From assembly GCA_017506865.1 (NCBI GenBank), contig JAFCMP010000323.1:434001-498000 (forward strand): a stretch of 64,000 nt of DNA, in the 5' to 3' direction. Under the pieces are notes generated by a model. It was not told where the DNA came from. It saw nothing but the letters and a program-made list of their open reading frames with translations, and ran no database searches. Position numbers and translations under genes: made by a program. Positions 16,751-61,564 of the stretch are shown one piece after another; position 1 is the stretch's first letter, and each line of letters begins with the position of its first letter. This DNA is from Tribonema minus. Its lineage: Eukaryota; Sar; Xanthophyceae; Tribonematales; Tribonemataceae.

Positions 16751-16759
16751 GCTAGTTGA

Positions 16760-23019: not shown

Positions 23020-23051
<32 letters not shown>

Positions 23052-23886: not shown

Positions 23887-23989
23887 TACTTTGCTCTGTG
23901 CCTCTTTTTACTGGCTTTCGTGACCTCAGGAGAGGAAGCGAGATGTACTGGTTTCACGGGCGGCGCGCTACGCCTCCGCTCGAAGAAGC
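23886..23989 (-). other. Possible terminal exon overlapping the ARM start codon
   Basis: After an acceptor (CCCTCGCAG near 23990) the minus strand encodes FFERRRSAPPVKPV...SKKRHRAK and stops at a TAA whose last base is the A of the ARM gene's ATG (TAATG). It could be the last exon of an upstream gene, a leader exon of the ARM gene, or chance. Confidence 0.25.
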
Positions 23990-26096: not shown

Positions 26097-29000
26097 TCAC
26101 TTCAACTTGTTGGCCTCGTGCAGCGCATCCTCGTCCGATGCCGCCGCGGCGGCGGCAGCGGGGGGCTTGGAAGCGGGCCCGTGCAGCAGTTTCTTCAGCC
26201 TGCAGACCTCATCGCTCAGCTCCTTGTTGACGCGCTGAAGGTCCTTGATCTGTGGAAGCAGGAAAACAGGTCGCATGTGGCAGTTTCGAATGATGTTTAA
26301 AGAACCCGCAGATGGTCTGTGGAAGCAGAAGAACATGTCGAAAGTGGCAGTTTTCAAACGACGTGTCTAGGGATCCATAGATGGTTCCTGTGTTTGGCCA
26401 TTTCACTGGGCACTTGCTAATACACATGGCCCATGGGCTATCATTGTCGCAAAATAACGACAGATGTGTTGAGTGAGAGTCAGGGTCTGTTGTCCATCTC
26501 GAATGCCTGCCTCAAAAGGACAGGCCTCAAAAGTATGCATTCAGAAGCCGAGGCTGGCACACAACAAGCATCAATCGCGTTACACTTGCTGTGATCCGAG
26601 GACCGTAGCGCAATCTAGTGTTGTGCGTGTTTGCATCTCGAGGGCTTGGCAGCAAGAATCAGGGACACGGCACTGACCCTGTGCACGAAAACTGATGCCA
26701 ATCTGGCACAATGGCAAGTTCTGAAAACTGGGTCCAGCACTGCACCCTGCGCACAGAAGCTGATGCCAAGCTGGCACGTTGGCAAAAGCTGACAACTGTG
26801 CAGGTGCACATCTCACCTCCTTCTTCAGCTGCTCATGCATCTGGATCTTCTGGCGCAGGTTGTTGTGCCCCGCCAGCTGCGCGTTCGCCTCGCGCTGCTT
26901 CTCAAACTGCAGCGCAAGCGCATGAGAGTGGCGGCCAAACAGCAAGATCAGCTACACACCAATCCGCTTCAGCAACAAGAGTTCATCAAACATTGTCAGG
27001 GCACTCATATGTGGGCCAAAAACGGAAGCTCGACGCACCCTGTTGAAGTTTGCAGCGGCCTTCTGCTCTGCCTCCACAGCGGCCTCCTCCGCAGCGCTGC
27101 ACTATACGCCAACCCGCGGCAGCAATATACATACAGTATAGACCCAATGTTGTCAGGGCAACCAAAATTAGCCCAAGAAACGGACGCTCGACATACATTG
27201 TTGAAGTTGGCGGCGGCCTTCTGCTCCTCAGCGTCGGCCTCCTCCGCAGCTCATCTTGTTATGTTTACATATTTTGAAGTATACTTCTTTGGTACAGCAG
27301 ACGGTGCCAGTGCGCTCTGCAACTCTGTCGCTGCATAACGGATCACCACAACTTTTGCATCGCCAAAAATACCTTGTTGAAGTTGGCGGCAGCCTTCTGC
27401 TCTGCCTCGGCGGCGGCCTCCTCCGCGGCGGCGCGCGCCGCCTGCTCCAGCTCCACCGCCTGCGTCAGCCGCAGCACGTCAGCGGCGAGCGCCTCCGAGC
27501 GCGACAGCGCCGCGCCCAGGCGCCCTTCTAGCGCACCACGCTCGCCCGGGCTGAGCCTGCCTTCGCGCAGCCGCGATATCTCGCCCTGAGGGGTGGGTGG
27601 GTGGGGGGGGGGGCTGCTGTTATTCGTGTACCGTCTTGTCGATAATTAAGGTCACTGGACGGCTTTTTTGTTAGTTTTTAGCGCCAGCATAAAAACATAG
27701 GACACCCATAGGACACCCTTTTAATTGCTTCACCAAAGATGTCCACCGTTTATTTTATTGCTTCAGCAATAAGATGTTCACCCCTCTTTGTATGCCACAC
27801 AGTACCGATTACTATGTTCACGACGAAGTTCACTCTGTCAAAGCAAAGCTGAACTTGTCGTGCTGAGCTGGGCCATGCGGTGCTGCTGTACGTTGCTGCG
27901 GGACTGGCTTGAAACACATTAGGCGCTGTTTGACAGCTTCGACCTCTGCTCCATGGAGGCCTAGCAGCACTTTTGGCACACAGGATGGATCGATCTACAC
28001 GCAGATCCTGACAAAACTGGCGAGGGACGAAACGTTTCTGCGGCGTCCGTTGGTTGGGCGAACGCGAGCGCGAATCCATTATGAAGAAGAACGAAGTGCA
28101 TAGCAGGCGATCTGTGTAGCCTTCTTAAAATGCGTCCACCCCTTTTAATTAGCTCCGCAAAAAGCACGTCCACCCCCCCTTTTTACGCGGAAACAAAAAA
28201 GCCGTCCAGTGACCTTAATTATCGACAAGACGGTAAGTGCAGTTCAACGAAATCTGCGAAGCTGAAGTTTGGATTGAAGTTGAACGCGACCCTCCCAGGC
28301 GCCCCTCTGGCGCGCCGCGATCGCCCGGGCTGAGCCTGCCTTCGCGCAGCCGCGATATCTCGCCCTGACGGGTGGGGGGAGGAGGGGGCTGTTATGCGAG
28401 TACATGTATGTGGTTTGTCGAAAAAGCAAAATCATCAAAGTTGAAGTTTGGATGGAAGTTGAGTGTGACAGTGCCGGTCTCCAGGCTCCCCTCTAGCGCG
28501 CCGCGCTCGCCCGGGCTGAGCCTTCCTTCACACAGCCACAAAAACTTGACGCTGTGGCCTGTGTTTTTCAAAGTGTTGTCATGGTCAGCAATTTATCAGT
28601 TGAAGTCAATACCTGATGAGTTGCGACATTGCGCCTCCATCGCGCCTTTTCCCCCTCTTGCCAGCTCACACTCACGTGTACTTCAACTTTGCTTCCCTTA
28701 TGAGCTGTTGAAGTAGAACGCACCTGGAGAGTTGAGATCTGCGCCTCCAGCGTGGTGCGCATCTCCTCTGCCTCCACCGCAGCGCTGCTCGACTCTTGCG
28801 CCAGCGCCACAGACTCTTCGCGCATGGTGCCGACCTGCATGAAGAAGTCAACAAGAAAGGTCAAGTTTATCTGGGTCAACGTATGCTATGGAGGACTTGC
28901 AACAGAGCGGAATAGCCACGTGATGGAGTAGATTGCGTTGCGCGAAGCCGTCTTGCACGTATGATTGTATTGATGCGCAGCCATGCATGAACTTTTCATC

Positions 29001-32000
29001 AGCGAGACCGCAAGCTGTGCCCCAACATGGAGAACAATGGCCACGACTGCCGCCCAGCATGTTGCCACCATGCCGACTGAACTGCAGTTGCCTAACCCCC
29101 CCCCCCCCCCCCCCCCTTGTCATTTAGTGTTGCACGGCATTGCGGCAGCAAGCAGCAGGCGTGCACCACTGGGCCTCAGCTCATTCAGTCCCCTTTCTTT
29201 CTGCTGCGGGTTGACATGCACCTGCGCATTGGTGAAGAGGTTATGTGCCAGGCTTGAGGTACTCAATACATACCTGCTCAATGACTGTGCTCAAGGGCAG
29301 GTTTGCAAGCACATGCTATTGCTTCCAGCCTTCCCTCACTAATTACTCTTCTATGTCATTTTATGGATTAGCTAGCATGTACTTCGAAGTATACGTTTGT
29401 GATCATTTAGACAGCTCGAAGTGACTCAAAGAGTAGAAAAACGAACATCAACTTTACCAACACGTCTACAAACTGAAGAATGATCACATGGGTACGTTGG
29501 CATGTCGCCTTAGGCAAGGTACTCAATACATACCTGTTCGATGGCCTGCGCCAGCTGCCCTTGCAAGTCTGTCAGGGCCTCCGTTAGGCAGCTGCAGACG
29601 GGCCACACGGGCAAAGCAGACAGGCACAGCAGCAAAGCGCAGTTCTTGAACGTCAAGTTGAAGTCGTTCACATTGCACTGAAGCGCGCAGTTGATCAACT
29701 TCTATCTATAGATGAGGGCTGCTGCATGCAGTGCAGTTCGCAACACCGCGCCGCTGTGCATGAATGCTGGCTCCACCGTATCTTGAACATCATTCGCCAC
29801 ATAGACCGGCACGTGTATAGTATGGAGTGCGGCGCAAAACGCAGTTCTTCAACTTCAACATCGCTGTCCACTACGGAAAATAGAATACTTCGCATTATAC
29901 AGAACCATTTGAAGATCAACCAACAACACGCATGCCCGTGAATGCGCCAAAAACCAATCAACTGCTGCACCATCAACACTTCTCCCACCCTGCCAAACAG
30001 GGCCAGAGAACTTCAACTGCAAAATACTCAACATCAACTCATGCACCTGCCCTCCCGTATGCGGTCCTCCAACTTCAACTGCAGGGTCTCCACCTCCTCG
30101 CTCTTGGCCTGCAGCTCGCGCGTACGCAGTTGAAGTTCCGCGTCCATCGCCGCCGCCGCCGCCGCGTGCCGCGCCGCCGCTTCGCGCCGCAGCTCCGCCT
30201 CGTGCGCCGCCGCTGTTGCGGAGGTTTGCGCTTCCGCCGTCTGCTTGGCCAGGCTGCGCATGGTTGTGTTCGTACATGCGAAGACGTACAAAACAGTATC
30301 AGTACTGCTCGTCACTTGTTTTTTTTCTAGGCGTGCACAACAGCGAGGTGCATCTTGGATGTGCTGCGCCGCCTGCCCGCTTTGCTTTATGCGAGGCTGT
30401 ACATGCAGGCACAACCGCTGACCCAGACCCTAGATGTGTGCTGTTATCATGAACCCTAACCCTAGCCCTAGATATGGGCTTACCTGACAGTGAGTTCGCC
30501 CACGGTGGCGAGCGCCTGAGCTGCCTGAGCATTGCTGGAGGCCTTTTCCTGCAACGCAGGAAACACGAATAGCGGCGGGCTGTTTAGTAAGCTGTTTAGT
30601 TTATGTGTGGCCCAGATGCAAGCGAGTGTATGTGCAGCTCAAATGCAAGCGCCTCTGCAATCAAATATGCTGCTGAGTCGCATGCTTTTAAAACCTGTGG
30701 TTGTTGCACTGTGCTCTTTCCTGTCACTACGGATGCAAACAGCAGCGGCAGCACCATTTTGACACCCGTGGCAGTGTACAGCGACATGGGATCATCCGGC
30801 AGTTTATCGCTACGTACAGAAATGCTATAATGCGTACTTTTTGAGGAGTGCAAGGTTGAGCATCCTCAGATATGTCGCTGAATCACGCAAGGACCAAGAG
30901 TAGCGGCAAGCTATTTTGTGTATGCACGGCTCAAATGCAAGCGCTCCTGTAACCACGTATGCTGCTGAGTAGCATGCTTCCAAGACCTGTGGCTGGTGCA
31001 CTGTGGTCATGTTAGCCACATGCTGCTGTGCCCCTCCCACCACTTTCTGTGTTACACCAAGCAGCGGACACGTGATGCTGTTGGCGCTTTCAACGCACTG
31101 CTTTACCAATGTCAGCAAGTCTCTTACTTCAGCCAATTTCCTCGCCCTCCAGGGGGTAAGGTTCTCCAGTTTATCTTCCTCAACTTCAAATTCAAGTTTC
31201 TTCACACCTGTTTGAGGGACTCCAGCGTCGCTTCAAGCGCCACCAGTGCTGCAGTCTTGGCCTCCAGCTGCAAGCCCAGCGTACATTGCTAGGGTTAGGG
31301 TTGCATATTGCGACAGCACATTCAGTCTAGTCGGTTGTGCCTCAGTCATGTACATATTCAAGAAGGTCAAAGCAGGACAGAACACATTTGTGTCTGCCTT
31401 CATAGTCAGGGTTTCGGTTATGAGGTTGGGTGATACCAACCCATACCCAAGCAGTCAAAAGCAGTGTCAGGCTGTTCGCTGCACTGAAGGAAGCGAAGAA
31501 AAAAAAACTGCATCTGGGACAAAGGCGTGGTGTGTTTTGTCTTAGCACTACACCGGCCCTGATGGCACAGTACATTGCACAGTACACAGTTCACATGGTA
31601 CAAAGCATGCGCAGATCTGCGGCGACGCCCATGCAGATCGCACAGCTTCAAAATACATGTACAGCACACACAGTGTACAGTACACGCTCACGATACACGA
31701 GTCCACCTGCGCAGCAGCGCACTGCAGGCTCACATCGATGCATGCCGGCCTCCCCCTGCACACTTTGCAGTATGCAGTACATACACAGTACACTTACAGT
31801 ACAGTACCCGCATTGGCACCTGCGCAGCAAACACACTGCGCAGTACACAGTACACGCACACAACACACAGTACACACAGTGTACAGCACAGAGTACACAA
31901 CAGTACTCACCTGCGCAGCAGCGCTCTGCAGGTCAGCGGTGACGCCCGCGAGCCTCCCCTGCAGATCGCGCTCGACCCTCTCGCGCTCCGCGAGAGCGAT

Positions 32001-35000
32001 GCGCAGGTCCTCCGCAGATGTGCGCAGCGCTCCGCTGGCCTGCTCCAGCTGCAACACGGCAAGGCGCTGTGCTTCAGTGCAGTGATGAATACTGATGATG
32101 CTTTACAGTACTGCCCCTCCCCCCAGTCTCAGTGACCATGGTCGAGTAAATCTGCTCGCAACATCCAGGTTTGTTGCTTGAAGAAGTACATTCTGCTGGC
32201 AATATTAAATTTGTCACTTGAAGTGCGCAGCGCTCCGCTGGCCTGCTCCAGCTGCAGCGCGGCAAAGCTCTGCGCTTCAGTGCAGTGATGTTACTTGAAT
32301 TATTCTATTCTGCTGGCAACTTGTAGATAAGTTTTTCACTTAATGTACTTCTTTATGTGAACGAATGAAAAGATCGTAGAGCTCTGGGTGACAAGGAGCG
32401 GTCAGCCGCGAGTGCCTTCCACACTTACCGTGCTTCTTTATATCATTTCTAGATATGTGCAGCGCTCCACTGGCCTGCTCCAGCTGCAGCGCGGCACAGC
32501 GCTGTGCTTCAGTGCAGTGATGAACAGCGAAATTTGTTGCTTGACGCAGATTCATTTTGGCAACCACAGAAGTTTGTACCTTCAAGTGTAGCATTTCTAG
32601 ATGTGCGCAGCGCTTCGCTGACGTGTTCCAGCTGCAGCGCGGCACAGCGCTGTGCTTCAGTGCCGTGATGAGCAACGCAGTTTGCTGCTTGACGCAGATT
32701 CATCATGGCACCAATAGAAGTTTGTTGCTTCAAGTGTATCATTTCAAGATGTGCGCAGCGCCCCGCTGGCCCTCTCTGCGCTTCAGTGCTGTGATGAACA
32801 ACTGATGATGCTTGCAGCGCGGCCCCTCCCCCCTGTCTAAGTGGCCGTGGTCGAGTGGTGCTGCTTGCGACATGCAAGTTTTTTTCGTTGTTGCTTGAAG
32901 CATAGCATTGTGCCAGCAACGTCGAGGTTTGTCACTTGAAATATACCATTGCACCTCTGTGATATACTATTACTCGCATAGTAAGTACCTGGAACTCTCG
33001 GTGCGCCAGCTACTCCTGCGCGGGCGCGAGCTCCTCTGCGTGAATCTCCCCGGCATGTCCACGATCACACATTCAAATTGCAAACTTCCCAAAAAAATCT
33101 TTCACGTTCTCATTGATAAATAAAAAATTGGGTCGCTCTCTCAAGTACCTGGAACTCGCGATGCGCCAGCTGTTCCTGCGCGGACGCGAGATCCTCCACG
33201 GCGGCAGCAGCGCTCAACAGGACCACAATATGTTATTGACGCACCTCCCAGCAAGGGTCTGTGGTACTTCACGCTCACAGCACCACTTTACGATACCACT
33301 GAAACTCCCCAGCACTTCCAATTATATAATTAATACATTCACACAATTGAGTATGTACCTGAAATTCGCGGTGCGCCAGCTGCTCCTGCGCGGATGCGAG
33401 CTCCTCCGCTGCTGCGGCAGCGCTCGTCGCAGCCTCCTCGCGCGTGCTGTCGCGCTGCAGCATGAGCTCAGAGTTGAGCGCGGTGAGCTCCGCATTGAAG
33501 GCCGCAGCCTCGGACACCTGCGTGCGCGCGATATGAATACAGCACTTTGTGAAATAGGAGGCAAAAGTTGACTGAAACAGTGGGATTAAAGGCTAACGTC
33601 TCCTTCAAAGTCGGTAGGTTGGTGAAAAACGCCACCAACTAAGAAGGCCGCCGCCTCGGACACTTGCGTGCGCGCAACACGAACAATACAAATGCAGCGG
33701 AGCGTTGAGATCGTCCCGTGCAAGGGTTTGAGGCTAGCTCAATTTGGGTTGAGGGGTTAGCTTACTCTAACGAGCGGTATTGGCTCGGCGTTGAAGGGCG
33801 CTGCCTTGAAAACCTGCGCGTGCACGCAACACGAAAACAGCAGAGACGTTGAGAAATAAGAGGCACAAATTGACTGAAAGCGTGGCATTAGAGGGCCACT
33901 GTTCCTTGAAGTCTGTAGATTGGTCAAAGACACCACCCCAGTTGAAGCTTGTTGCCAGCTCGAACGCCTTTACGCCAGGCGCGGACACAACTGAGCGCTG
34001 ACATCGTCCAGATCTAGGGTGAGAGGTTTGGCTAAATCAAAATAGGATTGAACAAATGGTACAGTCATTGGAAAGAGCTTTCCAACTGTGAACACCCACG
34101 CCTCAAATGCTGAGAAGCTTGCACACATAAGTTGTTTGGCTCCTGTGGATATGGCCAATGGCCGCAGCAGCGGCAACCACGGATACTGCCACACCTTGGA
34201 ACTTAGAGCTCTACGGTGTTTTTTCTTTATGTGGTTTACTTTGACCGTGAAAACAATGAAGGTATAATTGTTGAAGTTGCCATTGAAGTTGACGACTTGC
34301 CTGCTTGAGCGCTGCCTCAAGCTGTTCGCCGAGCTCCAGGCACTGCTCCTCTGCCGCGGAGACGGCGTCGCGCATGACGGCCACCTGCACAGCAGCGCTC
34401 AGCATCGAAGATTCGTGTTGTTAATTCACAGAACGTACAGCCGTTACACGCTCACTGCTGTTACTTGTGTTGGCAGTTATAGCAGTTAGTTAAGTGATGG
34501 TAGCAAAATGGCCACATGCTCAGCAGCGCTCAGCATCAAGGGGTGAATGAACACTTGAGTACCATTAACTTGGATTGAATGAAAGTGCTGTCAAAGCAAC
34601 AGTGCAATACCCAAGACTATGCTGAAGCAACAACACTATGCTTAAAAGCAACAATGCAATACCAAAGAGACTTGCAAATGTTGAGACATGTCCAATGTAC
34701 TACAAGTGCTCGTGCTCGCATGACGAAGGTTTAAGTTGTTAGCTCACAAAAGGTGCAAGCCGATATATGTTCATTGCCGTCACTTGTGTTGGCAGTTACA
34801 GCAGTGACTAGTGCTGCAGCAGAATGGCCACCTGCGCAGCAGCGCTCTCACTTGAGCACATGCAAGGTGCTGTTGAAGCAACAACGCCATATGAAAGCCT
34901 ACGTTGATACATCTGCACTCTGATACAACCACCCATGCTCGCATTACACCACGCCCTTGCAGCGGTCATCACCAGATATTCACGTTGTGCACAGCAGACG

Positions 35001-36252
35001 CAGACGTTACATGCGCATTGCCGTTCCATTCTGGCACTTGCGGCGGGGCGGCCCCCTGCACACCTGTGCACCATACCAAAGGTAAAACAAACACTGGAGC
35101 ACATCCAGGGCGCTGTCAAAGTAACAACGTGATGTCAACGACCCATGTCGAGACGCGTTGATCGCGCCATAGGCACCGCCGCTCATGCTTGCATTATCCA
35201 CATGATACTTGATGTACATGTTTATTTTAGACAATGTAACAACTGGTTTATATACATGTCAGCCAAACCGTTGCACGTTTCCGCTCACCTCCGCTGACAC
35301 GTGCGCGTGCTGCGCCTGCGCCGCTGCTGCTGCGCGCACGCTCTCCTCGCGCGCGGTGGCGAGGTCACGACTCAGTGCGTCGGCAGCGCTCCGCGACTGC
35401 TCCACCGCGCTCTCCAGGCTCTCAACCTGCATCGAAGACGAAACGTTGCTGCAGGGTCAGATGAAACGCTCTAGGCTCTGTACATGCAACAATGCGGTAA
35501 TGATGGGCACAGGATGTATGCATGGGTTTCATGAGGCATCACTGCTCAGTGGCAGCGCTCCGCGACTGCTGCATCGCGCTTTGCAGGCTCCCGGCCTGCG
35601 ATAAATGTGCAACGACGGCGCAGCATCACAGTTCATTGATAGGCCACGAACCAGCACGATTGCGGAAATGTCTGCGCTGAGGGTGTTCCAGTGCGCTTTC
35701 ATTAATAAGCCTTTTAGGAAGCAGAGTCACGGCTCAGCGCATCGGCAGCGCTCCGCAGTGTTACACCGCACCTTCCAGGGCCTCGACCTGCAATACAGGC
35801 GAACCGATGACGCAGGTAGTCTTAACCCTAACCCTAACCCTTGGCATTGTCCAAGCAACTGGGTGTGCGGCCTCCGCAGCTGTGCCACCAGCCTGCTGCG
35901 ACGGCGCATTTCCTGCAAGCTATACCCACATGCCCTGCAGCACTGATACCCAACATACCTTGTCTTGGAGTGCGGCGGCAAACGCTGCTGCCTCCGCAGC
36001 GCTATCCGCTGCCTGCTGCAACCTCCAATTTGATGCAAGCTATACCTACACGTCCTGCTGCACTTATGCCCAACATACCTTGTCTTGGAGCGCGGCGGCG
36101 AGCGCCGCTGCCTCCGCTGCGCTGTCGCCCGCCTGCTGCGACCGCTCCCTCTCGTGCGCAAGCTGCTGCTGCAGGTCGTCCGCGGCAGCTGCTGCAGCGG
36201 CATCGGCGCTCTGCAGCTGCGCCAGCAGCGCCGCTTGCGCTGCGTGGTGCGC
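26097..36252 (-). CDS. KIF15: Kinesin second stalk half and tail, exons 27-39
   Basis: Exons: 36079-36252, 35289-35426, 34301-34384, 33359-33517, 31911-32048, 31208-31267, 30484-30548, 30047-30253, 29534-29591, 28724-28834, 27373-27585, 26817-26906, 26097-26249. Coiled coil continues to exon 37. Exon 38 holds the kinesin-12 tail motif ([19 protein letters not shown]), which in the family mediates dimer or cargo contacts. The last exon adds a short coil ([20 protein letters not shown]), an Ala linker and an acidic end. The intron after exon 29 has a GC donor. The stop codon sits in a TTGAAGTGAGTG context that also looks like a donor, so read-in to a further exon cannot be excluded. Confidence 0.88.
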
Positions 36253-39200
36253 CTGCGCAAAGCGAGAACATGCAGATTGTTATTATTCATGGGCTCTTGT
36301 CTTCTTGAAGGACAAGTGTAATGTCCTGTGCTGCAAAGTGAACCACTGTATTAAGCACCACATTGCTGCTTGGTGCGCCAGCGCGAAGCGAGGACACGCA
36401 CTTCGTCATGAGCTCCTGTTTGCTGACTTCTGAAGTCATGTGCTGCAAAGTGAACCACTGCATTGAGTCATATTGCTGTGTCATGACGCGAGAATACACA
36501 TTGCAGTGTGAGCTACTGCAAGTGCAAGTCCTCTGCTGCACTGGAGCAGAGCTGACTGTGGCATGATCATTTCACTGCTGGCAGCAGCATTCAGCGAGTG
36601 CTGCTGCAGCGCTCTGCAGCAGCACTCTCCGTCTGCGGCTGACGAGCACACCTGCGCGGTTATTCAGCCTGTTCGCAGCCCATCCACCCTGACCTGAGCG
36701 GTCATGTCCAGTAAGAATGGAAACGAATCAAAAGATCGTAGAGCTGTAGGTGACAAGGGATGGTTAGCCGCAAGTGCCTTCCACCAGTAACCGTGGTCGC
36801 CGCTGCTGCAGCAATTGGCCACGAGTCAAACAGTACCACCGTATCCACCAGTCAAAAAGACTTCTGTGTGCAAGCTTTTAGCGTTCGAGGCATGGGTGTT
36901 CAGTAATTGAGAAGGTCTCACGTGTTCGGTAGGCCAGCTCCAGCCGGCAGCCCCCCCACACAGAGGTTCAGCAGCTAGTGACAGCGCTCTTGAATGCGCA
37001 TAGTGTAGAATGTTCAGCAGTAATGGACGCATACACTTATGCATGCCGCAGGGTCAGCGATAGGGTAAGGGTCAGCACAGCGGTCGTCGTCGATCCCGAT
37101 CTGGTTGCAGCGCTGCTGCTGTGAGCAGGGTTAGGGTTAGGGTTAGGGTTACGGTTAGGGGTAGGCAGTGCGCGCGTCTGCGATGCTTCGGTAGCCAGCG
37201 CACGTGTGCGGCGCTGCACCCAGCTGCAGCCCGAGCACGCCTCTCTGCTCGTGCAAAATAAAAAACAAAAGCCCATCGTACTAACAATGCATTCCCCTTG
37301 CCTGAGAGACCATCAACTGACTCAGCGACACCGCTGTTGTGTTTGCATGTCCAGCAAAGCTCACCGCATTAGCGCTATCATGTCCTACATGTCACACGGT
37401 GTAAACATTGACCCAACTCAATTATCACCTACCACACCCCTCACCAGCGCCATGTCCTGGCGCTCCTCGCGCAGCGATGTACAACCAATACATACCCCTT
37501 GTCTGAGATGCCTACCCCCACCGCTCACCTGCGCCGCGTCCTGGTGCTCCTCGCGCAGCCGCGCCAGCTGCGCCTCGGACCCATCGCGGGCCGCCGCCGC
37601 CGCCGCCAGCTCCGTCCCCGCCGCAGCGGCAGCGTCCGCATGCCACGCCGCCGCCGCCGCCGCCTCCACCTCCAACTTCACAATCGTGCTCTCGCGCTCC
37701 GCGAGCGACGCGTTGGCGGAGCTGATCGCCGCCACGATGTACGTCTGCTCCTCGGCAGTGCGCGCCGCCGCCGCCTCCAGCGCCGCGATGGCGCGCTCGC
37801 GCTCTTCCGCGGCAGCAGCGGCAGCGGCGCGCGCCGCCTCCGCCGCTGTGCGCCCCGTGTCCGCACGCGCCGCCGCCGCCTCCAACTCCACGATTGCACT
37901 CTCGCGCGCGGCGAGGGCGGCGGCGGCGGCGTCGAGCGCTGCTGCCGTGTCGGCGTGCTGCGCCGCTGCCTCCGCTGCCTCGGCACTCAGGCGCGTGACG
38001 GCGGCGTCGCGCTCGGCGGCGACGGCGGCGGCGCTTTCGAGCTCAGCGAGCATCGCGGCGTGCTGCGCAGCTGCTGCTGCTGCCGCTGCCTCCGCCGCTG
38101 CTGCAGCGGCGGCGTGGTCGGCGGCAGCCGCCGCGAGCGCCTCCTGCGCTTGAGCGACCTGCAGCACAAACAAAATGTGATTGCGGTATGCAGTGGACGG
38201 GGTGTTAGTATTTGAAGTTTTGAAGTTAAACTTCAAGTTACACAGCACGTGCACTTAAAAGGTGTGCTGCGACAAGCATCGGCATCATGGTACACTCAGG
38301 CAATGAGATGATCGAGTATCGCCGTGGCTCGCAAGCATAGCAAATGGTGCAGGGCGTGCACCAGCGATATGGCGACCTAACCCTAACCCTCGCCATGACG
38401 CTAGCCGTGACCATGCCCTTACTTACTGAGCCATGCCGCTGGGGTTAAGGAGGCTGAGAGGCCGCCAATGCCTTGCGTCTGCCGCACAAACATATCGCCA
38501 CGACGTGGCTCATGAAACGGGGGGGGAAACCCTCACACACTTCCAGCCCCTAACCTTAACCCTACCCCAAACCCTAGCCCTGACCCTCACACTGAGGGCT
38601 GACCACCACGCACACCGTGTTCGCCAGAGAGGCAACATGCAACGCTGCCAACAAGAACAATCGCTTAGGGTTAGGGTTAGGGTTCAATGGTCGCACTCCC
38701 GCAACTGACAGCACTGCAGCTGAGCAACTGTGTCAGCAAAATGCGCGCGCTTCATGGGTAGGTATGCTTGCCTGCGCCTGACTGGCGTCGAGCGCTGACG
38801 CCAGCGCGCCCTGCTGCTGAGCCGCTGCCTCCGCAGCGGCGGCGAGCTCCTGCGCCAGCGACGCCGCCCGCTGCGCAGCTGCCGCCGCCGCCGCCTGAGC
38901 CGTGTGGAGGTCGCCTTCCAGCTCCTCCACGCGGCTGCGTGCGAAAAACGCAGGGCAGATCGTGAACATTCATTACTTGCATGTGCTGGCTGAAATTGTC
39001 TAGACGCAGGTTTGCAGTCGGGAACGCGAGGGTGGACATTACGCAGGACGTTTTGTGTGGCGCTAGCGCTAGCCGCCGCCGCGTGAGCCGCGTGACGGTC
39101 GCCTTCCAGCTCCTCCATGCAACTGCGGCAGACAAAGCAGGCCTTGTCATGAGTTTCGCACCAGGAACTTAAACGAAACGGCAAACAGCAAAAACAATGA

Positions 39201-48200: not shown

Positions 48201-51200
48201 GCAATCTCCTCTGCCATAGCAGCCCTGCCGGCCCAAAGGATGCAAGAAATAAAAGAGGCAAACTTCATGTACAGCATATGTGTAGTCAGTCCAAGTGGTC
48301 TTTGTTTCAAATGCCGAAACCCGCTCTACAGCAGTCGGATCAAATGTTTGAGTTTCAATCGTTGAGGCCGCAATGTATACAGCTGATGTTGGATTGCAAC
48401 GCGTGCCACCTGTGTCCGTGATTGGCAAATGTCACCAGCTGTCAAGAGCAGGCAGGCCATCCTAGTGGAGCACCATGCAAATCTGCTGCGGTTGCACAAG
48501 GTACATACATACCTAGTGAAGCAAGGCATTGACTCAGCATATAGACTTGTTATATATGGCGGCTCACTTGCATGGCCAGTCGTGTCCATATCGAAGTTGT
48601 GAGACTGACTTCAACAGCAAGTATGCTTACATGCCATGCAAGTGCAAGTGGACCTGCAGCTCCGTATCGGAGTCGCCCCTTGCACAGTCGATGCGCAACT
48701 TGAAGTTGGAGTCCTGATGAACTTCAACTTCAACATACGGGACTCACCGCTCAGCATCGGAGTCTTTCTTGCGCTGCGCAGCCAGCGCGCTGTCCCTGAA
48801 CTTGAGGATCATCTCCTTCTGCATCGCAGCCCTGAAGAGTATGGGTTGAAGTTGAAGTGTTGTGGGTGAGGCTACGGTCAGTGAGCGGCATGAGGGATCG
48901 ACACAGAGACTGAGAGCGCCTCTGCACTTTGACGCAGAACCGCAAATGTGAACTGACGAAGCAGAGGTCAGCACATGTTGAGGTTGGTTCCTCGGTGACG
49001 TGCCACCTGGCTGGCGCGAACCCGCCAACAGGAACTCCACGTGTGCTGCCCATCGCATGGAAAACAGGTTTAGGGTTAGGGCTAGGGTCAAATTTGGGTT
49101 GGGATGCAGCAGCCCTGCCGACGAGCGCCAGGCACCCATTGGCAGCATGGTGATATACATGCATACATGTAGGCCGTGAACCTCAACAATGCGCACCGCG
49201 CGTGGACTTCAACCTCCAGGTCTAACCCTGAGCCGAGAGCAACTGACTTGTCAGCCTCCTCTGCCCTGCCCCAGTCCCAATCCTACAATCTCACTTCTCG
49301 GCTTGTCGACAAGGGCTGGGAGCGACTCGCGTGTTGGCTGCGGCGCGCGTGGCCTCCGCCTGAGCGCTGCCATCAGCGCCTTCAGTGACATGCCGCACGC
49401 CAACTTCACACCGCGCAAAGCACACATGAACCCTGACCCCCAAATGCAAACCTAAGAACGTAAACCCTAGAAACCTAGCCCCGAAAAAGACTAACTTCTC
49501 GGCCTTGTCAACGAGCGCCAGCAGTGACTCGGCGCGTGCGTTGGCGGCGTCGCACGCAGCCTCCGCTGCAGCGGTGCATCTGAGCGCTGCTGTCAGCGCC
49601 TCCAGCGGCACGTCACACGCCAAGTTCACACCACACACTACACGAAGAACCTGACACTCACTTCTCGGCCTTGTCAACCAGCGCCAATAGTGACTCGGCA
49701 CGCGCGTTGGCGGCGTCGCGCGCAGCCTCCGCTGCAGCGTTGCATCTGAGCGCTGCTGTCAGCGCCTCCAGCGACATACCACACACCTCAAAGCACACAT
49801 GAACACTGACCCAGATGTAGACAAACATAGCCCCAAAGACTCACTTCTCGGCCTTGTCGACGAGCGCCAAGAGTGACTCGGCACGCGCGTTGGCGGCATC
49901 GCGCGCAACCTCCGCGGCGGCGCTGCACCTGAGCGCTGCTGTCAGCGCCTCCAGCGACACGACGCCGTCGCCGAGGCTCAGCAGCTTGGCGGCGGCGGCG
50001 GCGTTCGCAGAGCCAAAGGATAGGCGCGCGGCCTTGAATTCCGCTGGGGTCATGGACGCACGCCCTGCAGTATACACAGGGATATTCATCAGCAATTACA
50101 TGACCTTCACGTCAACATTCATTGCAAAAAAAGGCAGTTGTTGGAAAATTGTTTAAAATCCTGATGTTTCAATCAATGGCAAGGGCGGTGGCTCCCGTTT
50201 GAAACACAGCACACCACAAATTCGCCTTTTGGCGCTTCTGCTGAGCCGAAGGACAGGCGCGCGGCTTTGAGTTCCGCTGGGGTCATGGATGCACGTCCTG
50301 CAGTTGGCACGAAGATCCATTCAGGTGTGAGCTGTGGCTCGTGAATGGCATGAATGAACTGATAATTCACATGGGAGCTTGGCGGTGGCGGCGGTGCGGA
50401 GCTTCAGGATAGACGCTAACCCTAACCCTAACCCTAACCCTAAGCCTTGAACTCCGCGGGGCTCATGGACGCACGCCCTCTAGCATACACGGAATAATTC
50501 ATCAGCAATTATATGACCTTTACATGTAAGTTTTTTTAAAAAGACAGTAAATTACAAGATCTGTGTGCTTTCAAGAATCATAGAAGTACAATTTATATAC
50601 TATTGTATGGGTCCCGCGCAACCGCCGGTGACGCACCTGGCCTGACGGCTTGGGGGTCAGCAGACATGCTTTGCAAACATCGTCAATGTTGCTGCTGACG
50701 CGCACAAAAGGTGGTGATCATTCTGCTGCCAAGATTGCATGCAAATGCCAGTGACACACCTGGCCTAACTGCTTGGGGTCCTGCGGCGGCCAGCGCCAGC
50801 TGCTGCCTGAGCGATGCCACCTCCGCCTTGAGCGCCTCAAAGCTGCCGCTGGTGTCCTGCAGCACGTGGCAGTAGCAGTGACATGACAGCACGGATACAG
50901 TTACACGACCTGAAACCTCCTGCAGAATGTGCCGGTACCATCAACACAACACAAATACAGTTACAAGATTTGAAACTGCCAGCTGTGCCTACCTGCCGGC
51001 ATCAGCATCAACACAAACACAGTTACAAGACTTGAAGTGTCCTGCCGAATGGCTCATGACTGTTGTGACGGTAGACGCTGCAAAGAGCGCTGTGTGCTGC
51101 CACTGGATAATGCAACACAGGAGAAGGTCAGCACGGAAGCTCAGCAGTTGCACTGAGCAGTGTGACGAACGACTGCTGCGAGTGGACGAGCTAACAGCTG

Positions 51201-54200
51201 CGACCACGGGGTGCACGGGATACGCTAGGCAACGACTCCTCTGGAGCAATATACATGCCATTCAGGCCCTTGTGTGGTACGTCTTCTGGCAGAGCTGCAG
51301 GGCCTTACATCCTACAATTTACGGGGGGCCATTCTCACTACACACGCTTGAGGTGCCAGAAATAAGGTCAGTGGTTTACGCGCCTCTGCTGGATTACAGC
51401 GCACGCTTGACGTGCATCAATCAGCGATTGTGACAGCGCAAGCTTGACATGCTTACATCAGTAACAATGACAGCGCGCTGCCGCAAGTGCACCAATAATA
51501 TGGGCCGCGACCACGTACGCACCTCATTCTTGATGGCCATGTTCTTGATCATCTTGGCGCGCTGCGCGAACTTCAACGTCGACAGCGTCTCCGCAAAGTT
51601 GATGCTGGCGGGGCTCACCGCCGCCTGCGCAGCACAAAAGGCGAGGCGGGTGTCGCTGTCAGAATTCGCTTTCCATTACAGCAGTCCAGTATCGCAGTAC
51701 TGTGCTCCATGTTCGTGAGCTAGGGTATCGTTCGACGTGTGCATGTGAGCACGCACCATGGCTGTAAGCCGCAAGCACAGGCGTCGCCGTCAGATTCCGC
51801 TTTCGTTACAGCAGTCCAGTTCTGCAGCACAGTGCGGCACGTTCGTGTGCTAGAGGATCAACTGAGCTGCTGCACTTATGCGGACGAGAACTGCAACAAT
51901 TGCATGATCGCGCACCATTGCTTCATTTTTCACGCTGATGAACTGAGTTGCTGTCGTGTATCAAGCGCAAAACCGTTCATGCAAGCTGCCGCCGTTCGCT
52001 TTGTGCGCAGGAAACCAGCGCGCTTGGTGTCAGCGAAATAGAGGCATTACAGTCCCGGAAACTTGATCTTGTCCCCAACCCTACATAATCCTTCGCGGCT
52101 GCCTTCGACAACAGCAATTGAGAAGCAAATGAATATTGCAAGTTTTCTTAGCTGACAGCAGATACTTGACATGCGTAGCAGCTCACCACTAGCAGCGTCT
52201 TGCTGTTGCCGCCCAGGAAATCTAAAGAGTCTATGATGTTCTGCAATAGAAACAATACCACTGAAAAAAAGCAATGAAAAGCACAGGAAGTACTTCAAGT
52301 TCAGCAACTCACCACAAGCAGCGTCTTGCTGTTGCCTCCCAACGAGTCCCTGAGCAGGAAGGTGAGCCTGCTGTTGCGATAGGCAACGTGCCTCTCTCGC
52401 CCGGCACTCTTCTCCACAAGCGCGCTGATGACCTGTCGGCAATCAGGCAGTGAGTGAAGTTCAGATCATGTCGTTGAAGTGTTCATGCGGTAGGCGACGT
52501 GCCTCTCGCGCCCGGCGCTCTTTTCCACAAGCGCGCTGATGACCTGTCAGCAATGATGCAATAACCGCCAGCGGAGTTCAGATCAGTGTTGATGCTGTTG
52601 CGATAGGCGACGTGCCTCTCGCGCCCCGCGCTTTTCTCAACAAGCGCGCTGATGACCTACAAACGATGTTTGCGAGAGTCGCAAACGCAGTTCAAGTTAC
52701 GTTATGTCATATTGAAGGAATTCATGCGGTAGGCGACGTGCCTCTTCATCCTTCTACACATTGAAAATTCTTCTCCCGACACTAGGTCGCCTGGTCACAT
52801 GAGACCTCACAACGCCTCGGGGGTAAAGCTCTGTCCATATGCGGACATCATTGACAAGAGCGCTCATTCGCAGCAGTTCAGCAGCGAAGCTCATGATTAG
52901 TAATCATCGCATCAACGCATGTGAATCATGAATTCATGAAAGCCAGTGTGAAATTACCTGGCCTAGCGTACTGAGCGACCCGTTGATGCTGCTGGCCTCC
53001 TTCAGGCGGTCTCCCCTGCCACAGCAAAAGACAATCACAGTCACAGTTATGAATTCACAAACATGAAATCACACCATGCAGTCGCCCCTGCCACAGAAGA
53101 AGACGGTCACAGACATGATTGCACGTTCACAAACATGAAATCACACCAGGCGGTCACCCCTGCCGCAGCAGAAGAAGATCACATACACAAAATGCACGTT
53201 CAAAAGCATAAAATCACACCAGGCGGTCACCCAAGCCACAGCAAAATACCATCACGGACATGAACATGCGTGCACAAAGATGAATTCAAACCAGGCGGTC
53301 ACCCATACCACAACAGCAGACGATCACAGTCACATACATGAATTCATGTTTAGGAACATGTAATCACACCAAGTCCCCCCTGCTACAGCAATGAATTACA
53401 ACATACATGAATAAACATTCACGAACATGAGATCACACCAGGTGGTCACCTCTGCAATAGCCAAGTTGCCAAACATGAATGGAATGTGCACTACATAATC
53501 CTGTTGGAAGGCGAGAAAGCTGCCAGCATCGTGCACTTCACAGTACACCTGTGCGCGCAACGTGAAGTCCTGCCAGCATGTACACACACAAACGTGATCA
53601 TGTACTTTCTATGTTGAGAACTCTCGCTGAGGGCGTACAATAGCCCAGATGATTGATGTCAAGCTTGCTACCAAAACCTACATGTCCCTCAGCACGAAAC
53701 GTGTCCATCTGCAAGAACGATAACTTCTGAACGACATCGCCCAATGCGCTTGTTTTAAAGTGCGTGAGAGTCATTTGATGAATGCTGCAGGGTATGCATA
53801 ATCACTTCAAGATTACACACCCTATTGTGTGCTCGTAGATGTGCTCGTGTACTTCTTTGAACTACACTCGTACTTTGGTAGTGCATAAATGGGGGTACGT
53901 ATAAATTTGGTTCAAGATACATACCCTGTTTGTGTGCTCTTCTGGCGCTCGCTGCCCGCCAGGTCGACCAAGTTGAACCTGCAGACCACCGCAAAACAGG
54001 CCGCAGACACGGCATGGAGCGTCAGTTGAAGTACTCGACAATTTCACGTGACCTGACGCATGCGGTATGTATATATTTCATTGTCACAATATGTAGATCC
54101 TGCGGATCACCGCTGAGCAGGCGTCAGGCACAGAGTGGAGTGTCACTTACTTGGCAGTTCAATGTGGCCTGCCGCATACGGTGCATAACTCAATGGTAGT

Positions 54201-57200
54201 GGGCATTTGATCAGTATCGTGCATTACACTTGCTGCTTGTATCCTGGCAGCTCTGCACCATACACAGCAAAACTTTTGGGCAGTACGCGTCAGCTACTCG
54301 GCAGTTGAATGTGGCCTGACGCACGCGGTGCACACCTCAATGGTCTTGAGCATTTGAACAGTACTGTGCAGTACACTTGCTCGTATCCTGGCAACTCTGC
54401 ACTGTACACTGCAAAACCAAGCACAGTATACAGCTACACGGGGTACATGGCAGCCGTTATTGCGCACCAAAAGGCAGCAAATCATTGCAACAGTATACTT
54501 CGAAAAAGTACTTTGAAGTTACTTCGAAGTGTATGATGCTTTGAGTTACGAAGACATATGCTGCTCTGCACCTGGCAACTCTGCGCCGTGACCCTTCACC
54601 AGGATCACTCAATGTTGTGTAAAGCATTCCATACTGTGCCGCCTGGATGCGCCAGGTACCTGACTTCATGATGTGTGACTATAACTAAATTGAAGTAGAA
54701 TGAAATAACGTGTGCTCTTGCAGCTGGCGAATCTCCAGCGCCTCCTCTCGCGCCTCGATGACCATCACGAACATGACACGTCAATCACTCCCTTAGGGTT
54801 AGGGTTAAGGTTAGGGTTAGGGTCATGGCGCGTCAACGAGAATTCTCACGATTCTGCAGCGCATGAGGGTGTCCTCCGGGCCTGACAATGTGTGCAGCAC
54901 TCTCTTTTCCTTTTGTGGAATTTGTTGCGGCGAGTACATGAGGCAGAGCGCGTGATGTTAGAACACATGCTTCCAGTCGCATTTGCCGCACCTGGCGCCT
55001 CTGCAGCGCAGAGTTTAGGACCGACCATTTTTGCATAGCAGTCTCTGTCTTAAGATATCAATTGCGAGACCTTTCATAAATGAATAAGTGGGCACACGTG
55101 ACTGTTGAAAGAATATACAGAAACATCCATCACGGCAGGTACATTTTTATAAGAATAGAGGAATATGTATGAGAATATAAAAGAAGCACATGTGACTTGT
55201 AAAGAACATTTCTGATTGAATTTACAGTTCTGTACCTGGCGACTCTGCAGCGCGTGAGCCCTTCCTCCAGCGCCTACCATTTTGTATAAAACCTTCTGTT
55301 GTAGAACATTCGTTACGGCAGGTACAATCGTGTGAAGAAAGTGGCACACATGACTTCTCTAAGGAAGGGTTTTTGATAACATCTGCTGTATTCCTGTACG
55401 CATGTACCTGGCGACTCTGCAGCGCGTGAGCCCCTCCTCCAGCGCCTCCTCCCTTGCCTCAATTACCAGCGTGAACACGGCATGGGATCTGCTGCTCTCC
55501 CTGTTCATGGCCGTCTCCCCCACGTGCCTGAAAGCGCAACAGTGACAGTTGAAGTTGCAATGTCAATCAGGATTCCCTCCCACGTGCCATATGGCATGCT
55601 TCGCCTGCTCGATGCCGTCTCTCCCACAAGTTCAAAGCGCAAAAGTGCAGTTGACAACGTCTACAAATATGAAGTTGCAGTCAAAGCAGGCTTCTCTGCC
55701 AAATGCCATTCGACATGCGCTGCCTGCTTCGGCGCCGTCTCTTCCATGTGCCCAAAAGCGCAACAGTAACACTCATATTGCACGTCTGAGGCCACAGTTG
55801 AAGTTAAAGTGGCAGTTCACGCTCCTCCTCCCAAAGTGTAATCTGGCATGGTCTCTTTAAGCACATTTGTCCCCCCCGTCACTGAAACACCGGAAGCTGC
55901 AGTTCGCTAACAGGGGGCAGAATGACACTTGAAGTTGCAACTGCAGCCATCAGCCATCAGGCCGTGCTGCAGGTCGCCTGCCCCCATGCTCTACAACAGT
56001 GCCGCAGCTCAGTGCCATCAGCACAGTACTCAACGGTGTGCTGCAGCGCTCTCGGGGCTCCAGTGCAAGAGCGCTGCATGAAGCACTGTCCTGAGCACTG
56101 CCCCCACAGCGCACGCATACATACATACCTTCAAAGTCTCATGTCAGATGTATACATACCCTTATGTCGCGCCGCTCAGCTCTCGTCAAATTTGACCGGA
56201 CAGGTTCACTCACACACTATCGAGTGTAGTAGACAACACTGTGTGGGCCACAGTGGCCCAGCCCAGCCCAGCCATTTGCATTGTTGGTTGTGAAACCTCC
56301 TGCATCTATGACCTGAGCAGTGGCGCGCTGATGCTGAGCAAATGCCGACTTTACGAACGTGAAGTCCCCTCCCCCCCCTCCCCCCAAGTGTCCAAAACCC
56401 GATCAACACCACCCTGCTGAATTTACAGGCAAAGCAAATCATCGCCTGACATGAGCGTCCGCTGACCTGCGCCTTTAGCCCCTGAACACACTGAGTGAAC
56501 GGTATGCTGCCAGCGGCATCCGCCCCTGTAACCTGCTCCTCAATGGCTCCCAAAGCATGACATTGCACATACCTACAGGTAACTATGTAGGTTTCTCAGT
56601 TCGCACCCAGTGTCGAATTCCGGGTCGCTTGTACCCTGATGCTATAGGAAATGGCGTCACGCCTCACGTAGCTGACTTGTTTCTAAAGCTCCCGAAAAAC
56701 CATGCTGCCAGCGGCATCCGCCCCCGTAACCTACTCGTTGAAGCGCAAAATTATATACATCTCCTCTCACCCTAGTGTGTCACACTGGATCAACAATACT
56801 TTGCTACGATAGGAAAGAGCATCACGTAACTGCCCACCTTACCTGTTTTTGTAGCCCCAGAAAAGTATGCTGCCAGCGGCGTCCGCCCGCATAACCTGCT
56901 CCTCCAAAGCGTGACGTCATACGTACATACACAGACTACGTAGTGCCTGACACTGTATTGACAACACCCTGCTGCTGCTACAGTCAATGCTGATCGTCGC
57001 GTCAAACGAGCGCCTGCTGACCTGTTCCTGTAGCCCCAGAACAGTATGCTGCCGGCAGCGTCAGCCCCCGTAACCTGCTTATCCATGAGTCCTGAAGCAT
57101 AAAGTCATTCATCTTCTTACACCCTAATGTGTCATACTGAAGTGATACTGAAACCGCAACCGCTAGTGGCATCTGCCTAGTACTAGCTGCACGGCATCAC

Positions 57201-60200
57201 CAAGGCCCTGCTACGATAGGAAAGGGCATCACTCAACACTGACCTGTTCCTGTAGCCCCTGAATAGTATGCTGCCAGCAGCATCCGCCCCCGTAACCTGC
57301 TCCTCCGTCAGTCCCTCCACGTATACCCCCTTCCGCGTGTCCTCCCTCACATTGAGTCCATTGGGGCCGCTCGAACTGCTCGCAGAGTCTGCAGGGGCAA
57401 CCAATCACGGCAATCATATATGACATACATATGCGCCATGGCACTGAATTCAATAGTGCATGATGACATCATGACGGCACTGTCTGACTCATTAAAGAAC
57501 TGAGGAATATTTTTTGTAAGAATGGATTTGGTGACTTGTCATTCTAGCTCAATCTCAAATGATGTACATTGTGCGCAAGTGTATGCCCTTCAGCAGGATG
57601 CATGATGACACACCGCTGCAAGAGCTGGCCGACTACATCCAAGCACACTGCACCCCAGTGTGGACCGAAACATGCGTATGATAATAGCAAATCATCCTTC
57701 GCCCAGAGCAGCGGTACGTTTGCCAGGTGGATCGATTGACATGCAGTGCTGATGGAGTGTAGCTCTACATACCCTGCTTGCATACACAGCCTACTTGCAT
57801 GTGCCTACATACCCTACTTGCATGTACCTACATACCTACATTGCATGGCAGCCCTGCATGTGCCTACATACCTACATCGCATGGCAGGACACAATGGCCG
57901 CTGCACGAGCTCACGGCCGATCCGGCAACCCAGACTGACTTCTGCGTCAATGGCATCGCCGTAGTGTAACGTGTAGGTGCATGAGTATCCCAGGTTGGCA
58001 TGAACACGCATGCAAATACTTACTTGCAACACCCTCGTCAATGTCCACATATATGTGTATACCTATTTATATATATTTAAGTATACACATATATGCCTGT
58101 ATGTCAGAAGAACGTTCACTTCAGGTCATGAAATGCACATGTACGCACGCATGCCAAGACCCCCCCCCCCCCCCCCAGTCCCCCGTACATGAGACTTGAA
58201 GTACACACGCGCTCACCCAGCAGGTCGAAGACACGCTCCTTGAAAATCTCGTGGAACGAGCACTGGCACGAGCACTGGCACGAGCACTGGCACTGCTACT
58301 CCTGTTTGCGCATACAGAAGTGTACACAACAGCATTCATGACTACCCCCCTCCTTTACCTACCAAAGTAATATTGAATAAAAAGTTCATGTAGTGGTTGT
58401 CATCGAGACACTTTCAGACTGTCACACGACATGTAGATTCCGTACAGCAAGCTTAGATACCATTCATCTGGCCGTTTTCGCGCCCGGAGCGGGAATTGAT
58501 AAAAAGGACACGTATGATTACTGAAGTAGTATTAAATAAAAAGTTCATGTATGCTCACCCAGCAGATCAAAGACGCGCTCGTTGAAGATCTCGTAGAACG
58601 AGCAGCGGCACGCGTACGTCACGCGCCCGCCCGCCGCCTGCGCCGCGATGCTGTCAAACAGGAACTCCAGGACGCGAGGGACCAGTCCCCGCTGACTGAG
58701 ACTGCGCGGATCCTGGGGATCGAGAGCGTTCTCCATCGCAGCGCTCGGACCGAAGGTGGTGAACGTTTTGCCGGAGCCGGTCTGGCCGTAGCAGAAGATG
58801 GTGCCATTGTAGCCCTCGAGGCACGCCTAAGGGGGCGACAGTCAAGTGTATGATGGTATGAGGGCAGATTCTTGAAGTTGATACTATTCAAGTTGTTAGT
58901 AATGATGTAGCGAATTTTGAAAGGCACTTGCACTGAAGATGGCAAATGCCTTATCAGAGCTTGTAAGGACGTTGCAGAAGTTGGTGCCGTTGTATCCTTC
59001 CAGGCACGGCAAAGTTAAAGAAGTGGGTGTGCACTTCGAGCACTTCAAGTATGATGGTACGAGGGAGCATGCTCCTGAGGTGGTGCATGCGCCAAACATG
59101 ATGAGCGTTGTCTGCAAAAAATCAATCTCGGCGTATCAGAAGGGGGAGCCCATGATGAGCTACGGCGCTGTGCAGTAAACGACAGCCAAGGGCGCACGTC
59201 AAGTACTTGAAGTATAACTAATACCTCAACGTACATATCAGGGCACATTCCCAAACCCGTAAACAAGGCCCAGCAGAGCTACATGGCAGCTCGTGCACTC
59301 AATGTGGTGGCTGATTTTGTGGAACCCGTCTGACCAACTCCAAATGTGCACTTGGTGCTGCGATAGCTTGCAGTACTCGAACTTCAACGGTGTCATGCGC
59401 GCGTCGCAGCTGGCGTGCGCACCTGATGACCGTTACATCACAGCAATCGCTGTGTGGCCATGCCATGGCAAGCGTGGCCGGCTGGTTCTTGTGCTCATTC
59501 AGGCAGGATCCTGTCACATGACAGTCACATGAAGTAAAAAATGCATGTCGCCCAGCATGGTCCCAGTACTCCTGACACCAGCATCATGGGCAAGAGCGGC
59601 TGCGGCAACATGACGGCTACGTTCAGTTACAGCAGTTACATACAGTTACACGCACCTGAGTAATGGGCTTCCCAACCTGCTCAAACACCTCCTCCTGCGT
59701 GGACTCCTCGCCCGCCGCATAGTCAAAGGTGAACAGCCTGCGTGGCAGTGCACAGCATGGGCAGCAACGCTCAGGTGCCAGCAGCTGAGGACTTATGTGA
59801 TACACGCAACAGGCAAGGGGAGTGTGAGCAGCAGTGCACAACAATTACCCGATCAGCAACGATAGTCAAAGGTGAACACCTGCGCGGCAGTGCACAGCGC
59901 AAATAGCAGTTACCCGATCAGCAACAATAGTCAAAGGTGAACAGCCTGCGCGGCAGTGCACAGCGCAAATAGCAGCTATCAGGTGCCAGCAACTGAACAA
60001 GTGATATGCGCTCAAACAGGGAAGTTGAACAGCCTGTGCAGCAGTGCACAGCATTTACTAGAGTAGTAACAATAATACGTGAACAGCCTGCGCGGCAGTG
60101 CGCAGCATGCGCAGCAATGCTCAGAAGCCAGCAACTGAGCATGTGATGTGTTGTCAAACAGGCCAGGTGAACAGCCTGTGCAGCAGTGCACAGCAATTAC

Positions 60201-61564: not shown

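Follow-up and report, generated by a model that had tools for sequence, protein, structure and literature searches.

Tandem exon duplication leaves direct, local copies of an exon in the adjacent introns, and in this it resembles the copies that we describe here in a kinesin gene of Tribonema minus. Unlike the products of that process, however, copies of the kinesin type carry one splice site only, and not one of 70 extends over 95% of the exon from which it came. For the potato RdRp gene, PMC4974935 recounts how a new intron was made when a tandem genomic duplication spanned an intron-exon boundary. There, as here, the tandem duplicate crosses one boundary and inherits splicing signals, but a single event gave rise to a new intron, whereas the locus described below has dozens of copies within existing introns. 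The Rogers model, as told in the same source, has an exon segment containing AGGT duplicated in tandem to yield an intron at a new position, and so differs from our case, in which the copies lie inside introns that already exist. A Drosophila study (PMC2891723) likewise attributes novel introns to tandem duplication of exonic sequence; the duplicated coding segment ends in an intron, as it does here, but at a novel intron position instead of within an existing one. Repair-mediated proximal duplications of vertebrates, for which PMC2671141 lists four partial exon/intron donors for 824 proximal events, are also local copies of about 150 bp that are able to carry splice sites or partial exons. 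Unlike the present work, that study excluded tandem cases and describes a copy in opposite orientation, and its partial-exon cases are rare. In a study of Ectocarpus transposons, introns are described as long and tandem repeats as spread relatively evenly, and the portion of its text seen here makes no mention of exon-edge copies (PMC12477816). Among the matches listed from the open literature, a scope that most subscription papers fall outside, none describes introns growing by serial arrays of exon-edge copies. Single boundary-crossing tandem duplications are known; their density and their arrangement in serial arrays are new.

The window, by which we mean the whole 64,000-nucleotide stretch of T. 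minus DNA that was analysed, comes from a genome assembly of 158 Mb in 554 contigs. Its segment 26097–61564 carries, on the minus strand, a gene of the KIF15/kinesin-12 type with 39 predicted exons encoding 1714 amino acids, and the reading frame of this 39-exon model has no internal stops. The best protein matches are KIF15-type kinesins of Hapterophycus canaliculatus (65% identity), Discosporangium mesarthrocarpum (60%) and Phaeothamnion confervicola (66%), and on these matches the genome falls within the stramenopiles, in or close to the brown algae. In tblastn, three homologues bear out the exons of the motor domain, and the exons of the coiled-coil part are predicted from codon use and a splice-signal model. 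Some exons proposed by the gene finder were, in our judgement, edge copies, and we deleted these manually from the models of the kinesin gene and of five of six other genes examined alongside it. The introns are 230–1716 bp long, with a median of 718 bp. In the splice-site training set (96 donors from the kinesin and the six other genes, including some predicted exons later judged to be copies), about 11% of the donor sites are GC and the acceptor consensus is YGCAG|G. Elsewhere in the window, positions 12400–18800 (minus strand) hold a retroelement that encodes reverse transcriptase and RNase H domains and contains 30- and 42-bp repeats; 8271–8898 and 10484–11130 share 69% identity over about 650 bp and overlap ORFs that have no Pfam match, as a local gene duplicate; and an ORF at 22513–23907 has weak armadillo-repeat matches and a long low-complexity stretch rich in Gly and Ser. 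In the wider assembly, the contigs C90/C179 and C144/C223/C278 have protein kinase and HSP70 matches of equal or near-equal scores and lengths, as if these genome stretches were present twice.

A self-comparison of the whole window yielded 101 forward pairs and nine inverted pairs, and in 92 of the forward pairs the two starts were less than 1 kb apart. We defined local repeats as those lying no more than 1.2 kb apart and fixed the search space for the comparison of coverage. Local direct repeats occupied 32% of 26097–61564, whereas the four stretches into which the rest of the window was divided had 2.8, 4.2, 1.0 and 0%, and inverted repeats took up 0.5% of the kinesin gene and up to 3.4% elsewhere in the window. 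When the gene was read on its own strand, 92 local pairs were direct and five inverted (97 and two, respectively, in a second run over 26097–61564), bearing out the same orientation that had been ascribed to the copies. Total local-repeat coverage was nearly equal in kinesin exons and introns (0.302 and 0.308), because the exons are short and some contain internal repeats (37761–38140).

To locate the repeats with respect to splice junctions, we used probes of 40 bases, taking a score above 26 as a match and a score of at least 36 as a strong copy. The preliminary description had reported that introns of this gene contain copies of neighbouring exon edges, and had proposed a comparison of exon edges with exon centres and with shuffled introns. 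Within the intron on their own side, 14 of 38 donor edges and 14 of 38 acceptor edges found a match (28/76 in all), whereas the intron on the far side gave 0/54; exon centres matched in 3 of 38 tests. Probes just inside the intron matched in 9/37 cases at bases 7 to 46 and in 12/37 at −66 to −26 (21/74 near the junction altogether), and intron interior probes in 75/296. The reverse-complement control gave 1/76 for edges, 0/54 for the far side, 0/38 for centres, 1/74 near junctions and 8/296 for interiors. When each probe was instead matched to one randomly drawn intron of another gene, kinesin edges scored 0/76 and interiors 1/296, and an earlier control with other introns of the same kinesin gene had given 1/76 for edges. 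In view of the two edge controls, 1/76 and 0/76, chance matches were set aside. Introner elements, which would place similar sequence in many genes, were likewise rejected on a small sample of introns: 0/158 edge probes matched when each was compared with a single intron picked at random from a different gene. The comparison and the self-comparison thus confirm the exon-edge copies within the kinesin introns.

Strong copies were found for 18 of the 39 exons (3, 4, 5, 6, 9, 12, 16, 17, 18, 21, 24, 25, 26, 27, 28, 30, 31 and 37), 16 of which are among the 19 exons named at the outset if the two numberings, both of 39 exons, are equal. The probes recovered no copy of two others named there, exons 20 and 29, and exon 8 falls below the probe threshold, with about 13 exon bases per copy. 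The statement that more than half of the exons are affected is accordingly borderline, with 19 at the weaker threshold and 20 when exon 8 is counted; that copies occur at nearly every junction proved too strong, given 28/76 edges in the kinesin, 20/82 in six other genes and 7/90 in shorter loci.

We then characterized the copies individually. After copies less than 45 bp from the junction had been dropped, the full table held 95 copies; the strong ones, with near-duplicate rows merged, came to 70 and belonged to 41 edges. The spacing from one copy to the next (70 steps) had 5, 25, 50, 75 and 95% quantiles of 89, 120, 159, 188 and 233 bp, in good agreement with the period of 70–230 bp first noted. 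In the 70 strong copies, the overlap with the exon was 19–117 bp (median 51 bp), and the failure of any of them to reach 95% of the exon length rejects whole-exon (tandem exon) duplication. On the intron side, identity fell from 0.72 to 0.55 by 80 bp and to 0.36 at 90–100 bp, with a baseline of 0.09–0.17; on the exon side, it fell from 0.90 to 0.45 across 100 bp of exon. Homology thus lies on both sides of the junction, as in a boundary-crossing tandem duplication, and copies that end at the splice site are rejected because intron homology runs on for 80–100 bp. The extent of homology is as expected of a duplicated unit about as long as the spacing, and the copies lie head to tail in the same orientation, a few of them non-adjacent.

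The copies were said to include the splice site and to leave fossil exon ends within the introns, and this is what we observed: GT is kept in 39 of 46 donor copies and AG in 34 of 49 acceptor copies of the 95-copy table. With the site model trained on the set described above, scores above that of the weakest tenth of real sites were reached by 23/34 donor and 20/36 acceptor copies, compared with 3.3% of random intronic GT and 13.6% of random intronic AG at the same cut-off. Many copies therefore keep strong decoy splice sites. Kinesin introns with copies were longer than those without (median 816 versus 613 bp; n = 23 and 15; p = 0.002), in keeping with the proposal that the duplications lengthen introns.

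The main arrays are collected in Table 1. The copies of exon 9 differ from the exon at synonymous sites only, and the same holds for two copies of exon 24, in which 66 of the 74 exon bases are aligned. If any copy is in use, the likeliest place for it is the exon 24 array. Three copies in this array (39308–39824) are in frame with open extensions and could be translated if a distal donor were used.

Table 1. Exon-edge copies in the kinesin gene, with positions in the window; distances are from the corresponding exon edge.
Feature	Position	Strand	Distance and remarks
Exon 4 acceptor-edge copy, decayed	58970–59009	−	183 bp; also detected by tblastn
Exon 5 donor-edge copies	56462–57314	−	222 and 401 bp; weaker at 567 and 764 bp
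Exon 6 donor-edge copy	55236–55275	−	172 bp; 1 difference in 40 aligned bases
Exon 8 acceptor-side tandem array	52958–53450 (exon 52958–53015)	−	units of about 72 bp, each with AG and about 13 exon bases
Exon 9 acceptor-edge copies, two upstream	52313–52658 (exon 52313–52432; copies about 52504–52543 and 52617–52656)	−	111 and 224 bp
Exon 9 donor-edge copy in downstream intron	52187–52226	−	126 bp
Exon 12 acceptor-edge copies, two	50258–50523	−	233 and 413 bp; outer copy split by telomeric repeat
Telomeric repeat within intronic copy of exon 12 start	50420–50443 (copy region 50370–50530)		exon homology continues on both sides; about 3 bases lost
Exon 12 donor-edge copies	49290–50064 (exon 49845–50064)	−	183 and 349 bp; weaker at 550 bp
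Exon 18 copies	44396–45205 (exon 44758–44904)	−	acceptor 140 and 281 bp; donor 182 and 362 bp; used donor uncertain
Exon 21 copies	41901–42571 (exon 42294–42383)	−	donor 188 and 376 bp; acceptor 158 bp
Exon 24 donor-edge copies	39308–39824 (exon 39751–39824)	−	130, 255, 306 and 423 bp
Exon 31 acceptor-edge copies, four	31911–32779 (exon 31911–32048)	−	203, 435, 583 and 731 bp
Exon 37 acceptor-edge copies	28286–28550	−	779 and 965 bp; not adjacent to exon

As a measure of how the copies have evolved, we compared them with their exons and with one another. On average a copy is 12% divergent from its exon. Over the 70 copies, K was 0.127 between exon and copy and 0.239 between the intron flanks, a ratio of 1.9; a roughly twofold ratio is expected when one side is constrained. 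Even for the seven least-divergent exon pairs (1.4%), the intron flanks were 17% divergent. Decay rising with distance from the exon, as originally described, found weak support. At the 26 edges with several copies the nearest was the better match in 15 and the farthest in 8, and donor copies showed a borderline correlation with distance (rho −0.29, p 0.05), acceptor copies none (rho −0.03). Changes could be polarized at edges with two or more copies, and they fit the view that older copies lie farther out. Among the 81 changes private to the nearer copy, 31 were synonymous, 50 nonsynonymous and none a stop, for a neutral expectation of 0.29–0.32, 0.65–0.68 and 0.03, respectively; changes private to the exon were 38 synonymous and 9 nonsynonymous, and those private to the farther copy 44 synonymous, 47 nonsynonymous and one stop. 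The synonymous excess in the farther copies would be explained by exon changes fixed between two duplications, which fits serial outward growth.

Some pooled values hint at coding selection on the copies. Pooled differences in the kinesin were 131 synonymous, 104 nonsynonymous and one stop, with a neutral copy expectation of roughly 89 to 104, and the pooled ratio of third to first and second codon positions was 2.6 (1.93–3.54, with two genes out of phase). Near-private changes also lean to the third position (19, 23 and 39 by codon position), for which weak constraint or a mutation bias may be responsible. Despite these hints, coding selection was set aside, as the polarized synonymous and nonsynonymous changes are near neutral. 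Gaps were not multiples of three in 22 of 24 cases, and 26/70 distances were divisible by three, showing no preference. An in-frame open extension to the copy's own site was present in 8/70 copies (3.2 expected): three in exon 24, three in the kinesin gene L073 and one each in exons 16 and 26. The copies thus evolve close to neutrally, often with frameshifts.

For comparison within the same genome, we examined six other genes, four encoding HSP70 and two encoding kinesins, which were picked by their number of exon matches and not by their repeats. Matches were found for 20/82 edges, 0/72 far-side tests, 2/77 centres, 48/328 interiors and 15/82 near-junction probes, with 3/82 edges and 2/328 interiors in the reverse-complement control. 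The genes differed widely in edge matches, from 0/11 in L072 to 6/8 in L073. In the sequence beyond these six longer genes, one locus had 6.5% of 2.2 kb covered and the remaining five had no coverage. We also searched 52 shorter loci, chosen to surround further exons of kinesin, kinase and HSP70 type, having left out L007, L027 and 14 loci that overlap the six genes. Any local direct pair was present in 16 of them and an inverted pair in one (52 versus 1 pairs). Copies were found for 7/90 edges (1/90 in the reverse-complement control), of which two, L043 and L045, have near-identical match tables and are possibly one case. Coverage in these loci was 5.7% in predicted introns, 2.9% outside predicted genes and 1.8% in exons. 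The kinesin gene is thus the dense end of an uneven phenomenon.

The kinesin introns contain a further kind of repeat. Interstitial (TTAGGG)n of at least two units forms 14 tracts at ten sites between 35826 and 54823, all within kinesin introns, and none was found in the 28.5 kb that make up the rest of the window. Exact matches to (TTAGGG)3 number 5238 forward and 6236 reverse in the genome, or 11,474 with overlaps and contig ends counted; the reversed control motif has no exact three-unit match there. One tract interrupts a copy, lying in the intron, of the beginning of exon 12 (Table 1). The real exon 12 shows the state before insertion, so that the telomeric repeat would have entered this copy once the duplication had taken place, the simplest occasion being a break. 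The tracts suggest, without proving, that breaks are common in these introns and that the duplications are products of break repair. The six other genes, two of which are as duplication-rich as the kinesin, have one tract in 31.9 kb of intron, and the 52 shorter loci three in 198.5 kb, which counts against a general link between tracts and duplication. We set aside the notion that the tracts are parts of a dispersed element, as a comparison of the 150-bp flanks of ten tracts showed three short similarities, of which two joined the two sides of a single tract.

Taken together, these results make it likely that intron growth in this genome comes from local tandem duplication, again and again, of segments of about 90–230 bp, intron-wide and across boundaries, followed by near-neutral decay. 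Duplication of such segments would recur throughout introns and across intron-exon boundaries. An event that crosses one boundary would be nearly harmless, as the copy on the exon side would keep the original splice site and the other would become intron; the boundary-crossing anatomy is seen directly in the copies, and we infer from it which splice site is used. Duplications confined to an exon, and those that take in an entire exon together with its two splice sites, would alter the protein and, to judge from their rarity, would mostly be removed. Later duplications would start from the exon again, leaving newer copies nearer and older ones farther out. The copies would then decay near-neutrally, with exon-copy pairs diverging about half as fast as intron-intron pairs, and exon edges would stand out because the conserved exon keeps exon-copy pairs visible for longer. 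Initiation may probably be ascribed to the repair of staggered breaks or paired nicks or to replication slippage, with array growth thereafter, a step that we put forward tentatively. Several observations count against this explanation: the shortfall of edge copies in junction-blind simulations (below), the equal repeat coverage of kinesin exons and introns, the 17% divergence of intron flanks in the least-divergent exon pairs, the third-position lean and pooled synonymous surplus, the in-frame open extensions, the far lower coverage in other genes, and a few copies that lie apart from their exon, such as the exon 37 copy at 779 bp.

Such displaced copies would be accommodated if the copies were captures of nearby DNA by synthesis-dependent strand annealing during repair (Pace et al. 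2009) and not tandem duplications, and the scale is the same, as PMC2671141 gives an average of 162 bp and a median of 147 bp for proximal captures. Capture should, we infer, yield both orientations, however, and the strong one-sidedness of the local pairs argues against it, as does copy homology that extends for about the length of the spacing, as in head-to-tail arrays. Most copies are tandem and few are non-adjacent, and we regard capture as improbable, though it is the strongest of the three alternatives in this paragraph. Somewhat less probable still is the idea that copies are kept because they function, as spare or alternative splice sites or as splicing enhancers that aid exon definition. 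The good sites retained by many copies, the purely synonymous differences in those of exon 9 and two of exon 24, and the excess of in-frame open extensions would all agree with a function; against it stand the near-private changes, close to neutral in synonymous and nonsynonymous terms, the broken frames and the indifference of the distances to multiples of three. That the matches arose by chance or from misassembly is hardly credible. The reverse-complement control is not quite empty (10/538 kinesin probes, eight of them interior), but the edge controls are, at most, one in 76, and the 12% mean divergence of the copies and the same pattern in other genes speak against an assembly artefact.

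A bias of duplication towards exon-intron junctions, such that junction-spanning copies arise 1.5–3 times as often as interior ones or more, is a less remote alternative, which we nevertheless consider rather unlikely; nucleosome position, polymerase pausing or R-loops, for example, could bring it about by favouring breaks or template switches. Edges matched more often than interiors, at ratios of 1.5 in the kinesin (28/76 versus 75/296) and 1.7 in the six genes (20/82 versus 48/328), and the narrow spacing, with quartiles of 120–188 bp, was also counted in favour. Local-repeat coverage, on the other hand, was 0.32 at the junction on either side, only slightly above the plateau of 0.21–0.28 at 15–300 bp into the intron; it was about 0.1 at 60–90 bp into the exon and rose again in deeper bins, which come from long exons only, to 0.25 in the deepest (n = 239). 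The initial view of a process spanning junctions is not supported in that form, as interiors are duplicated about as densely, and near-junction intron probes (21/74) barely exceed interior ones. We simulated junction-blind duplication, keeping the exon constraint and using the same detection as for the data. At a constant rate the edge-to-interior ratio was 0.56–0.60. Runs with an old burst gave ratios above 1 but edge matches of 0.10–0.16, compared with 0.37 observed. The best of 260 junction-blind draws, with duplication mostly before 0.06 substitutions per site ago, gave 0.32 for edges and 0.35 for interiors (observed, 0.37 and 0.25) and underpredicted strong edge copies (0.11 versus 0.24). 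Junction-blind duplication thus accounts for much of the pattern, with some surplus at edges left over. In 260 draws with a 1.5–8-fold junction boost, the best five (boost 1.6–4.2) had fit distances of 9.7–15.9, compared with 16.0 for the junction-blind best, but this gain is small and depends on the assumed history. Intron-wide local tandem duplication with a 1.5–3-fold excess at junctions is, on these simulations, possible. We doubt the more far-reaching proposal that intron length is set mainly by continuing tandem duplication concentrated at junctions, moving outward in steps of about 160 bp, so that every affected intron would contain fossil exon ends in dated succession as well as a stock of ready-made splice sites; it seems to us weaker than the junction bias itself.

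Recurrent local tandem duplication of intron segments bears on what makes introns long in compact genomes. As every copy's ancestral sequence survives in the exon, the events may be put in order, and neutral decay measured, within a single genome. The arrays also pose a question of splicing, namely how the right site would be chosen among several near-identical donors or acceptors 100–400 bp away.
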